NCBI GenBank assembly: GCA_945883335.1
Contig: CAMCXI010000004.1
Span: 1-64,000 of the forward strand
Origin: Candidatus Methylopumilus universalis
GTDB taxonomy: Bacteria > Pseudomonadota > Gammaproteobacteria > Burkholderiales > Methylophilaceae
Length of the DNA stretch: 64,000 nt
Reading direction: 5' to 3'
The stretch's first letter is position 1. Each line of letters opens with the position of its first letter. The notes below the pieces were generated by a model. It searched no databases. It was not told the DNA's origin and saw only the letters and a program-made list of their open reading frames with translations. The translations under genes were made by a program, and so were the position numbers. Positions 16,862-26,389 of the stretch are shown in pieces.

Positions 16862-17244
16862 GTTAATTCTCCAGCGTGCAAAAAAACTCAATTGTAAACG
16901 CTCGCCATCGCGCTGAATAGACGCAATAGGATTAACTTTTAAAACGAAGTTTATTTTTCATCGTAAATAGACCTAAAAAAATCAAAAAATAAATCTATAA
17001 TATTAAGTTGATTGAATAAGTCGCTAAATGTAATTTCGTATTTCGCCAGAAATTAAATCATGATTTTCATGGTGACTACTAAGCGTTAATAGTTCACATT
17101 TGAAAGGATATGAAGATTGTTTTTTCTGAAGTTTTGTGAAAAAACCAAACTAACCAGAATTTTGTAATAAAACGCATCACAATAAAAAGCTTTTAGAAGC
17201 ATTGAATTTTCTTAAGTTATCAATGTCATGATTAGGGGCCAACG
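16862..17244. other. AT-rich intergenic region between ilvE and the SCO gene
   Basis: About 380 bases separate the divergent ilvE and SCO genes, so both promoters must lie here. The DNA is rich in A/T runs. I looked for an FNR/ANR site (TTGAT-N4-ATCAA) upstream of the oxidase genes and found none. TTGATT near 17009 could be a -35 element, but no good -10 is spaced from it. I see no RNA gene. Confidence 0.5.
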
Positions 17245-22837: not shown

Positions 22838-23631
22838 TGCCAATATTTGCAAATGAATTAAGCATGACAGAAACCTTATTTGGAGGGTTGGTTGTTGGAG
22901 CCGTTATATTCTTTGGGGTCCGCAAAGCTGGGCTATCCAATTTTTGGGCGGGCATTTTAAGTGGGCTTCTGCCGTTCATTGCTTATCTCGCTTACAGCAC
23001 TAGCCACTGGCCTGGTGGCGATGTTCTTACCATTCACTTTGCTGTTTATATTGCTAATGCAGGCTTACTCATCGTATTTGGCGGCATGCAAAAGAAAAAA
23101 GAAAATATGCACTGGGCCCCCAGGGTGATTATTGGGTTTTTCATGGGGCTGTTGTTGCTTAACGCCATATTCTTATCAGTAGCTACACGTGGTCTACCTG
23201 ATCTACTAACCCGTTCTTTTTTACCTAACCCAGAAAACCGTCAAGTTCACACAGGTTTTCCAGGTGTCATTCCGCATGATAGAAATAAACTTTATGAGGC
23301 TCATGTGCAAGATGTAGAGCAACAAAAAAATTTGGGTTGGAATGTGGAAGTGCAAGGATTAGATCTTCTCAAAAATAATCTTGCATCCAATATCGTGATT
23401 AAATTGACTGACAAACAGCATCAGCCGATTGTCGCGGCGACAATTACTGTCGAGTTCTGGCGTATGGCCAACAGTGCTGATGATCAAACAATACGATTTT
23501 CTGAAACCAAGCCGGGTGAATATCATGCGATGCTTCGTTTGTCTGATGAAGGCTTGTGGCTGAGTGATTTAGAAATTCTAAAAGGTGAAGCGCACTACAC
23601 GCTTAAGCAGTCAATTACTGTGGGGCAGTAG
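22837..23631 (+). CDS. ccoH: CcoH/FixH family assembly protein with extra N-terminal membrane helices
   Basis: The C-terminal half (residues about 105-264) fits FixH: a helix (VIIGFFMGLLLLNAIFL), then YEAHVQDVEQQKNLGW and a periplasmic beta domain with EFWRMANSADDQ and MLRLSDEGLW. FixH aids cbb3 assembly. The N-terminal about 90 residues add three further predicted helices (about 14-31, 36-54, 62-84) absent from the usual short FixH. Position between ccoG and ccoI strongly supports the name. The role of the extension is unknown. Confidence 0.8.
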   Translation: MPIFANELSMTETLFGGLVVGAVIFFGVRKAGLSNFWAGILSGLLPFIAYLAYSTSHWPGGDVLTIHFAVYIANAGLLIVFGGMQKKKENMHWAPRVIIGFFMGLLLLNAIFLSVATRGLPDLLTRSFLPNPENRQVHTGFPGVIPHDRNKLYEAHVQDVEQQKNLGWNVEVQGLDLLKNNLASNIVIKLTDKQHQPIVAATITVEFWRMANSADDQTIRFSETKPGEYHAMLRLSDEGLWLSDLEILKGEAHYTLKQSITVGQ

Positions 23632-23641
23632 TTTTAGCTTT

Positions 23642-26086
23642 ATGCACACCGTTGGGCAAGCGCAAACGCAATCCAATCCAATCCCAGACAAAGCCCTCTG
23701 CTTTCACTGTGGCTTAACTGTCCCCGCAGGTATCAATTTTTCAGCCAGTATTTTTGCGCAAGCCCAGCCCATGTGCTGTCGGGGTTGCCAAGCGGTTGCA
23801 ACATCAATTGTTGAAAATGGTCTAGAGGACTATTACAAACACCGTACTGAGCTTCCTAAAACCGCTGAAGATCTCGTGCCAGATGTGCTACTTCAGCTTG
23901 CGCTTTACGACCATCCTGAAGTTCAAAAAAGCTTTGTGCTCGATGGCGAGGGCGACTACAAAGAGGCCTCACTGATTCTTGAAGGCATTACCTGTGCTGC
24001 TTGTGTTTGGCTGAATGAACGCCATTTAAGTCAGTTGGCTGGCGTACAAAGTGTGAATGTGAATTACGGTTCACAACGTGCGCGTGTTCGCTGGAACGAC
24101 AATCAAATCAAGCTCAGTCAGATTTTGGCTGAGATCAATAAAATCGGCTATCATGCCCATCCTTTTAGTGCCCAGCAACAAGATGCTCTTCGTCAGCAAC
24201 AACGAAAGTCTGATTTTAGAAGGCTTGCTGTCGCAGGCTTGAGTGCTGGTCAGGTGATGATGATTGCCGTGGCTTTGTATGCAGGCCCTGCCCAGGGCTT
24301 AGAATTTGCAACAGCACAATTGTTAAGATGGTTTAGTTTTGTTTTAACGATCCCTTCAATTACTTATGCCGCGTGGCCGTTTTATGAGGCTGCTTGGCGA
24401 AATATTCGTCATCGTCGAATTGGCATGGATGTGCCAATTACCTTAGGCTTGATAACAGGTTTTGTGGGGAGTGTCTGGGCCACCATCCACGGTCAAGGCG
24501 TGGTGTATTTTGACACACTCACCATGTTGGTGTTCTTCTTGCTAGGCACGCGCTATCTCGAACGTAATGCCCGCGAAAAGTCTATCGAGTCCTCAGAGAA
24601 TCTATTGCGACTCGCGCCTGTGATGGCGACAAAAGTCGATGGCGAAATACAGATTTTAATGCCTGCGATGGAATTAAAATTAGGTGACGTCATTCTAGCA
24701 AAGCCAGGCGAAACCATTGCGGCCGATGGCCTGGTGGTGACGGGTGAAAGTAGTGTGGACGAGTCCCTGCTTACCGGCGAAAGTCGCCCATTACCCAAAT
24801 CTTTAGGCGCCCAAGTCTTTGCTGGTAGTATTAATTACGAAAGCCCGCTGACTATCCAAGTGACTGCGATTGCTGAAAACACCATGTTGGCAGGTATTTC
24901 TCGTTTGCTAGATAGGGCGCAGGCCGAGAAACCAAAACTTGCAGAAACGGCTGACCGTGTTGCCGCTTACTTTACGACTGCTTTGCTAGTGACGGTTGCC
25001 TTGGTAGCTTTAGTTTGGTGGCAAATTCAGCCAGACCGTATTTTGGAAATTGTGCTGACGGTATTAGTAGTGAGCTGTCCTTGTGCCTTGTCACTTGCGG
25101 CACCAGCAGCCTTTGCGGCGGCTGGATCACACTTGGTTGCGCGTGGCATATTGTTAACACGTGGCCATGCTTTAGAAACCTTGGCCAAGGTCACGCATTT
25201 TGTATTTGATAAAACCGGCACGCTCACGCTAGGGCAGTTAAGTTTAGTGAATACCATCACCCATACGGACCTTGATGCCGAGGCCTGTTTGCAATTGGCG
25301 GCAAGTTTAGAAAAAAATTCAGAGCATGCGCTTGCAAAAGCCTTCTTAAACGCACAGGGTAATCGCCCAGTGCAACTGGCGGCGAAAGTTGAGAATATCC
25401 CAGGCCAGGGAGTTGAAGGTATCGTAGCGGGGCTTAAATTGCGTTTGGGCAATGCCAAGTTGAATCAGACTTTTTCGGCTGATTTAGCACAAGCGTATTT
25501 GCCAGGTGCCACTGTTGTTTGGCTCAGTGATGAAACGCGCCTGCTTGCAACTTTTGTATTGGCAGACCAAGCGCGTCCAAAGGTTCAAGCGCTGATCCAA
25601 AAATTAAAACAGCAAGGCCTGCATGTTTCAATTTTGAGTGGCGATTCAGTAGCGTCGGTTTCACATTTCGCTCAGCTTGTTGGCGTAGTTGACTGGAAAG
25701 CCGCTTGCTCGCCAGAAGATAAATTAGTGCATATTCATGCCCTTCAATCTGAAGGTGCAGTAGTGGCGATGGTGGGAGATGGCATTAACGATGCGCCTGT
25801 GCTGGCAGCGGCGCAAGTTTCTATGGCGATGGGAAGTGGCACCCAAATGGCACGCGCAACGGGTGATGTGGTCTTGCTCACCGAACATTTACTGGAAATT
25901 GAACATGCGCTGGTGACCAGCCGTTTTGGCATCAGCGTCATCTGGCAAAACTTTATTTGGGCGATTGCATATAACTTAGTTGCATTGCCCTTTGCGGCAG
26001 CTGGTTTGCTGAGTCCTTGGATGGCGGCTATTGGGATGTCAGTGAGTTCGCTGATTGTGGTGCTCAATGCGCTTCGATTAAAGTGA
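23642..26086 (+). CDS. ccoI: Copper-translocating P-type ATPase CcoI/FixI
   Basis: This ATPase supplies copper for the cbb3 CuB centre. The protein is about 814 residues from the ATG at 23642; a longer frame to 23585 would overlap ccoH. It has an N-terminal CFHCG and CCRGCQAV cysteine region typical of CcoI, then a heavy-metal domain with GITCAACVW. The membrane CPC (SCPCALSLAAP), the phosphorylation motif DKTGTLT and the GDGINDAPVL hinge follow. The N-terminal extra zinc-ribbon-like cysteines separate CcoI from the general CopA exporters. Confidence 0.94.
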   Translation: MHTVGQAQTQSNPIPDKALCFHCGLTVPAGINFSASIFAQAQPMCCRGCQAVATSIVENGLEDYYKHRTELPKTAEDLVPDVLLQLALYDHPEVQKSFVLDGEGDYKEASLILEGITCAACVWLNERHLSQLAGVQSVNVNYGSQRARVRWNDNQIKLSQILAEINKIGYHAHPFSAQQQDALRQQQRKSDFRRLAVAGLSAGQVMMIAVALYAGPAQGLEFATAQLLRWFSFVLTIPSITYAAWPFYEAAWRNIRHRRIGMDVPITLGLITGFVGSVWATIHGQGVVYFDTLTMLVFFLLGTRYLERNAREKSIESSENLLRLAPVMATKVDGEIQILMPAMELKLGDVILAKPGETIAADGLVVTGESSVDESLLTGESRPLPKSLGAQVFAGSINYESPLTIQVTAIAENTMLAGISRLLDRAQAEKPKLAETADRVAAYFTTALLVTVALVALVWWQIQPDRILEIVLTVLVVSCPCALSLAAPAAFAAAGSHLVARGILLTRGHALETLAKVTHFVFDKTGTLTLGQLSLVNTITHTDLDAEACLQLAASLEKNSEHALAKAFLNAQGNRPVQLAAKVENIPGQGVEGIVAGLKLRLGNAKLNQTFSADLAQAYLPGATVVWLSDETRLLATFVLADQARPKVQALIQKLKQQGLHVSILSGDSVASVSHFAQLVGVVDWKAACSPEDKLVHIHALQSEGAVVAMVGDGINDAPVLAAAQVSMAMGSGTQMARATGDVVLLTEHLLEIEHALVTSRFGISVIWQNFIWAIAYNLVALPFAAAGLLSPWMAAIGMSVSSLIVVLNALRLK

Positions 26087-26098
26087 GTCTCGCCCAAC

Positions 26099-26126
26099 AA
26101 AAAAGACAGCCTAGACTGTCTTTTTT
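26099..26126. terminator. Bidirectional terminator between ccoI and pqqA
   Basis: A perfect 11-bp inverted repeat, AAAAAAGACAG / CTGTCTTTTTT, with a six-base loop CCTAGA. Because the A and T runs are symmetric, it can stop transcription from both ccoI (plus) and pqqA (minus). Confidence 0.92.
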
Positions 26127-26148: not shown

Positions 26149-26220
26149 TTATTTGTTCATTACGTACATTGTTACTTCAAAGCCGAAACGCATTTCTGTA
26201 GCTGCTGGTTTTGTCCACAT
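26149..26220 (-). CDS. pqqA: Coenzyme PQQ precursor peptide PqqA
   Basis: A 23-codon gene, far below usual annotation cut-offs. The peptide begins MWTKPA and contains F14-E15-V16-T17-M18-Y19. Glu15 and Tyr19 are the two side chains that PqqE cross-links to build pyrroloquinoline quinone, and both are at the classic positions. A strong ribosome site, GGAG, lies 8 bases before the ATG. A terminator starts about 22 bases after the stop, so it is a single-gene transcript. No pqqBCDE genes are in the window. PQQ serves periplasmic methanol and alcohol dehydrogenases. Confidence 0.9.
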   Translation of the reverse strand: MWTKPAATEMRFGFEVTMYVMNK

Positions 26221-26389
26221 AATAATTCTCCAAGTTTTATTTAATTCGCTTTGCAGTTTTTGCATTACGTGAATTAAATATTACGCTACACATCAAAAGT
26301 TACCCTATCAGTGTTCATGAATAAGCACTCATGATTTTCATTAACTTGATTAGTTAATTGAGTCTGAGTTTCTCAGTGATAGCCTATGC

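Follow-up and report, generated by a model that had tools for sequence, protein, structure and literature searches.

A common promoter box before dispersed pqqA genes and a candidate PQQ regulon in Methylophilaceae and related families

Results

The genome analyzed here (1.6 Mb, 92.8% complete) carries six pqqA genes, and, as judged from the alignment of their promoters, the copies have one element in common, a 17-bp palindrome (the PQQ box) that lies at a fixed distance from a predicted -10 hexamer and that recurs before three kinds of PQQ genes: pqqA, pqqB and, in relatives, genes for a PqqU-like importer. This element is the less ordinary part of the locus described below. We think it probable that one two-component regulator drives the dispersed pqqA genes, the enzyme genes and, in relatives, the importer gene, with the additional pqqA copies raising the supply of precursor. 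With a little less assurance, we favor the wider proposal of an order-wide PQQ regulon, in which one LuxR-type two-component regulator and one palindromic box would join unlinked pqqA genes, the operon (even one that lacks pqqA) and the importer, and in which the number of pqqA genes would act as a gain setting. Which regulator binds the box, that binding activates transcription, and that the signal is PQQ demand or alcohol are the parts of the proposal that we infer.

A stand-alone pqqA gene convergent with ccoI

The window, that is, the 64,000-nucleotide stretch analyzed (bases 1-64000 of contig C4), contains a minus-strand pqqA gene whose span and length of 23 codons proved to be exactly as a sequence-only reading of the stretch had given them (Table 1). 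Its product (minus strand, 26220..26149) is MWTKPAATEMRFGFEVTMYVMNK, which matched profile TIGR02107 with 38 bits in the genome search (cut-off 20) and with 40.4 bits as a single peptide; the profile found no match in any of 14 control genomes. As that reading had also reported, the translated peptide retains both Glu15 and Tyr19 (E15 and Y19), the pair, three residues apart, that is the future PQQ. The ribosome-binding site GGAG precedes the ATG at 8-11 nt. As a gene, a stand-alone pqqA is of an ordinary, already described kind.

Table 1. Features of the pqqA locus in the window
Feature	Position	Strand	Basis
pqqA, 23 codons plus stop	26149..26220	minus	ORF translation and TIGR02107 profile
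Ribosome-binding site GGAG	26228..26231	minus	read from sequence
Predicted -10 element TAATAT, 61 nt after box start	26278..26283	minus	sequence; position conserved
Promoter-proximal half-site TTCATGA	26315..26321	minus	sequence; conserved column block
PQQ box TTAATGAAAATCATGAG, inverted repeat	26328..26344	minus	promoter alignment, pattern and weight-matrix scans
Palindromic terminator, common to pqqA and convergent ccoI	26101..26124		sequence, hairpin folding
CcoI-like copper P-type ATPase, end of cbb3 cluster, outside the pqqA unit	23585..26086	plus	ORF and domains

The gene had been said to have its own terminator. The hairpin is real (-14.7 kcal/mol over a 44-nt stretch, z -4.4; it was not listed by a consensus terminator scanner), but it does not belong to pqqA exclusively: pqqA converges on ccoI, and the hairpin, being a palindrome between the two convergent genes, is able to serve both. 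Allowing up to two mismatches, the palindrome occurs at three places, each behind one pqqA copy. A mobile repeat around the palindrome was considered and rejected, as all three places lie behind pqqA, a pattern that looks like cassette duplication.

Six pqqA genes and one set of enzymes

The profile search placed four of the six pqqA genes on contig C1 (at 102, 163, 349 and 352 kb), one on C2 (at 292 kb) and one, the window copy, on C4. None of pqqBCDE adjoins the window gene, in keeping with the sequence-only reading, which had suggested that the enzymes might be elsewhere. They are: the C2 copy heads a complete pqqABCDE operon on a contig separate from the window, PqqB, C, D and E there all score above curated cut-offs, and the PqqE is the single one above cut-off in the genome. 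The same reading had offered two explanations for the isolated gene. That it is the only pqqA is wrong and is rejected by the six genes found, whereas precursor dosage is the best reading and agrees with a report on Methylovorus sp. MP688, in which, according to the portion seen of a paper citing that work, there are five copies and PqqA availability is rate-determining (Ge et al. 2015, cited in PMC11317620).

The five stand-alone copies encode an identical peptide, and their nine nucleotide differences are all at third codon positions and all silent. The operon PqqA ends in VCNR and the stand-alone copies in VMNK. The same division between operon and stand-alone copies was seen in the rows read for the window's genus (L005; L038-L046, L055, L056); elsewhere in Methylophilaceae the VCNR/VMNK split shows no link to the operon. 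The copies at C1:349 kb and C1:352 kb and in the window have upstream sequence and terminator in common, which suggests that these three arose by cassette duplication. The two C1 copies of this group are 3.1 kb apart (L049, G000:C1:343-358 kb), and by eye a site-specific recombinase-like ORF and a phage integrase-like ORF lie within 5 kb. In another genome, a pqqA at the nrdJ locus (L074, G076:C16:95-157) has an upstream region of the nrdJ-locus type and a terminator of the cassette type; it is close to a contig end, and either gene conversion or an assembly chimera would account for it.

Among named records, the PqqB of this genome is closest to those of a Methylophilaceae isolate and a Methylotenera bin, for which reason we assign the genome to Methylophilaceae. 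Multiplicity of pqqA is general in that family. The gene was found in 149 of 150 sampled Methylophilaceae genomes, and among the 108 good genomes the median was 4 copies (range 1-12; two or more in 105). Multiple pqqA genes in Methylophilaceae are already published: 3-12 copies per genome, alongside, as a rule, a single set of the remaining pqq genes, are described in the passages seen of PMC4109929. The main text of a transcriptome study of three Methylophilaceae (PMC3728764) does not contain the string "pqq."

The PQQ box is phased to the promoter

The palindrome CTMATGAWWATCATKAG is present in all six pqqA promoters with zero to two mismatches, roughly 110-130 nt upstream of the ATG in the alignment. 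The shorter pattern WTGAWAATCMTKAG has five exact matches in the genome, all of them upstream of pqqA (5/5), and the sixth pqqA has a site that departs from it at one position. In a weight-matrix scan of 875,787 bases of the genome (about 868 kb distinct), the pqqA sites took ranks 1-6, with 22-27 bits against 14.6 for the next-ranked site.

We collected 100 pqqA rows from Methylophilaceae and aligned the 99 that had enough upstream sequence. A half-site, TTCATGA, follows 23 bp after the box, and sequence 5' of the box is at background level. A -10-like hexamer stands at +61/62 in 89 of the 99 promoters, and a hexamer with at least four matches was found between +50 and +75 in 95 of 99, as compared with 32/99, 43/99 and 18/96 in three control windows. 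Because the distance from the box to the -10 element is fixed and that to the ATG is variable (sd 9.5), the box keeps its register with the promoter and not with the gene. When scored with the matrix, 98 of the 99 real pqqA rows reached at least 10 bits, L032 being the exception at 6.7 (the scoring listed 100 rows, from which L082, a PqqB fragment, was left out). For 600 null windows the 95th percentile was 4.5 bits, the 99th 6.9 and the maximum 26.5, a value so high that some null windows probably contain a real box. As the matrix was trained on Methylophilaceae pqqA promoters, the independent tests are those on other genes, on other families and on rank within the genome.

The test on other families of the order covered 38 of the 40 genomes outside the family with pqqA, several of which give more than one promoter. 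A site of >10 bits was present in 42 of 47 pqqA promoters; the five lacking one came one each from groups f4, f49, f31, f8 and f2, and box scores in f2 are weak (5.8-18.5).

The box recurs before pqqB and before PqqU-like receptor genes

In one genus, three genomes (G104, G019 and G081) have an extra perfect site directly before pqqB, in an operon without pqqA, and the -10 element is at +61. Boxed pqqB genes were likewise found in three named records, those of Methylophilus rhizosphaerae and M. aquaticus (-10 at +61 in both) and that of Candidatus Methylopumilus universalis (-10 at +64); none of the three has a pqqA in the 700 nt upstream of pqqB. At one further locus (L399) the box is kept before pqqB but the -10 spacing is not. 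Among 79 named pqqB loci, 33 score >10 bits, a threshold that is laxer here because the span scanned is 700 nt. The 33 are mostly from Methylophilaceae, with some from Rhodocyclaceae, Oxalobacteraceae, Acidovorax, Aromatoleum, Methyloversatilis and Thauera, together with one Neptunomonas and one unplaced gammaproteobacterial bin. Among the loci below 10 bits are one Methylotenera (9.7), Dechloromonas, single bins of Rhodocyclaceae and Burkholderiaceae and two bins of Oxalobacteraceae; the rows titled methanotrophic Gammaproteobacteria and three Pseudomonas also miss the threshold.

The third kind of target is a TonB receptor gene, upstream of which a site was found in two genomes (G069 and G116). 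The G069 receptor matched the YncD/PqqU structures 6v81 and 9c4o with 427 bits (next best, 61). The PqqU model NF041535 is the best model for the boxed receptor, and since its 541 bits fall under the curated cut-off of 1200, we call these receptors PqqU-like. PqqU-like genes are present in 55 of 80 Methylophilaceae genomes. Three of 50 loci had no usable start; of the remaining 47 promoters, 39 have a site of >6.9 bits, compared with 0 of 47 same-locus control windows and 6 of 470 shuffles. The -10 element is at +38/39 in 25 of the 39, versus +61/62 for pqqA. By this geometry the single pqqU box would take the place of the proximal half-site of pqqA, as for an activator touching polymerase at about -43.

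The window's own genome has a PqqU-like gene in two matching pieces with one in-frame TAA (L301, G000:C1:240605-242685), which reflects either gene decay or misassembly; the best upstream score is 4.6 bits, that is, no good box.

Sites at other genes are few. In the window's genome, three non-pqqA places match with up to two mismatches (C3:143109, C2:47411 and C6:72252), all in or against coding sequence and probably due to chance. With at most one mismatch, a hand count in 14 other genomes gave 36 distinct places: 26 before pqqA, 3 before pqqB, 2 before PqqU-like receptors and 5 others. Of these five, one is inside an ORF (G013), one between ORFs (G016), one in G014, and two, from different genera, are perfect boxes close to a gene for a glycine-zipper envelope protein (L190, G006:C1:63944; L185, G048:C1:1854002), which may mark a further regulon member or be chance. 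Within the window itself, a one-mismatch match to the short pattern at 17057-17070, between ilvE-like and sco1-like ORFs upstream of the cbb3 cluster, is probably chance as well.

A candidate regulator

In four clusters outside Methylophilaceae (L401-L404), a boxed pqqA adjoins genes for a histidine kinase and a LuxR/NarL-type response regulator (the kinase of L404 by tblastn only). Seen by eye, L401 and L403 also have TonB-like and peptidase-like genes, and L403 and L404 a PqqU-like receptor; domain matches bear this out for L401 only, with the TonB match falling under its cut-off. Of the 38 genomes examined outside the family, 10 have the regulator within the loci retrieved; as the retrieved flanks are short, little can be read into its absence from the others.

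Orthologs of both proteins are encoded on C2 of the window's genome, the regulator at C2:51251-51892 and the histidine kinase directly upstream of it. The regulator is 65-70% identical to five of the linked regulators, with a near-invariant recognition helix, and has Response_reg and GerE domains; the kinase has HAMP, HisKA_3 and HATPase_c domains and a weak match to PF16448, the LapD/MoxY periplasmic domain (23.4 bits; cut-off 25). No pqq gene is linked to this pair in the genome. The search took in C2 whole, C1 but for 999 bases, and C4 up to base 202800, together about 868 of 1,598 kb (54%), so that a closer relative may exist. The identity of the regulator is the step of the PQQ regulon to which we would attach the least confidence.

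Discussion

PqqA peptide is the substrate of PQQ synthesis, and one is consumed per PQQ made; extra gene copies would therefore raise supply without extra enzymes. We propose that the single pqqBCDE set on C2 processes the peptide from the stand-alone genes and that pqqA copy number sets precursor supply. The LuxR/NarL-type regulator at C2:51251-51892 would bind the box, which lies some 65 bp before the predicted start of transcription, with the weaker half-site at about -43 and the -10 at its fixed distance, and would activate the dispersed pqqA genes and pqqBCDE; in most relatives it would activate pqqU as well. Its signal may reflect PQQ demand or the presence of alcohol.

The box might instead be a genuine operator that is read by some other regulator, such as a Fur-family protein. 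Its core, AATGATAATCATT, resembles the classical Fur box, pqqU encodes a TonB receptor, as do many genes for iron receptors, and by eye L401 has a Fur-family-like ORF near the end of the cluster. Yet L402-L404 showed no ORF of that kind, the 868 kb (54%) of the window's genome scored with the matrix hold no site outside pqqA promoters that comes near the six in score, and the pattern scan of the whole genome, with its three non-pqqA places at up to two mismatches, is unlike an iron regulon. A position near -65 from the predicted start is, moreover, activator-like. We therefore regard another reader of the box as unlikely. We give still less credence to pure dosage, in which the copies would simply add up and the element would belong to a constitutive core promoter, without a regulator of its own. 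The locking of box and -10 element at a fixed distance would suit such a feature, as would the precursor limitation reported in another member of the family (in the portion seen of PMC11317620). But a 17-bp inverted repeat so far upstream and specific to PQQ genes is not found at promoters of this genome in general, and the box is placed differently in pqqU promoters. Finally, that the 23-codon ORF is incidental to a non-coding or decayed element is scarcely credible, for although the gene is very short and Rfam matches exist, these (24.9 and 22.4 bits) are below their gathering scores (56 and 70), so that an RNA element is rejected, and the profile match, the purely silent differences among the copies and the synteny of the locus in five of the nine other genus genomes compared mark it as a stand-alone gene, in all appearance functional, and not chance. 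We thus prefer activation of the PQQ genes through the box by a LuxR-type two-component regulator.

The promoter box, its three kinds of targets and the candidate regulator together make up a coherent proposed PQQ regulon; a literature search, with most subscription journals outside its scope, turned up no paper on a box common to pqqA, pqqBCDE and pqqU. Why methylotrophs retain so many copies of so small a gene, and how PQQ genes that are not linked are coordinated, are questions of practical concern for PQQ production and for lanthanide- and calcium-dependent alcohol oxidation; with one box and a named candidate regulator, both can be put to the test.

How does the proposed regulon compare with known systems? 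The six copies found here agree with the multicopy pqqA described for Methylophilaceae, in an account whose passages seen (PMC4109929) do not treat promoters or a common box. Orphan precursor genes besides the operon copy are also known, from the parts seen of the respective papers, in Methylorubrum extorquens (PMC11317620) and Hyphomicrobium (PMC9851590), where individual copies respond differently to conditions; these organisms, unlike ours, are Alphaproteobacteria. As to import, the boxed receptor of G069 resembles the PqqU importer of PMC12124388 (2025), which, in the portion seen, reports a general lack of synteny between pqqU and the pqq operon, taken there to suggest independent regulation. 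Our results bear on that inference: since the box is common to both, it argues for common control of pqqU and the pqq genes in Methylophilaceae despite the lack of synteny.

MoxYX and MxaYX are two-component systems of methanol oxidation. Like them, the candidate pair consists of a kinase and a LuxR-type regulator, here with a weak LapD/MoxY match; it differs in that this match is subthreshold and in that its candidate targets are PQQ genes. In Pseudomonas, co-regulation of the pqq operon is likely due to a LuxR-type regulator, AgmR/ErbR, encoded at another chromosomal site (PMC12997753, seen in part). The three Pseudomonas pqqB loci in our set differ in having no PQQ box, but there, as in our proposal, a LuxR-type regulator would act on pqq genes to which it is not linked, and by analogy the regulatory logic that we propose would work like that of AgmR.
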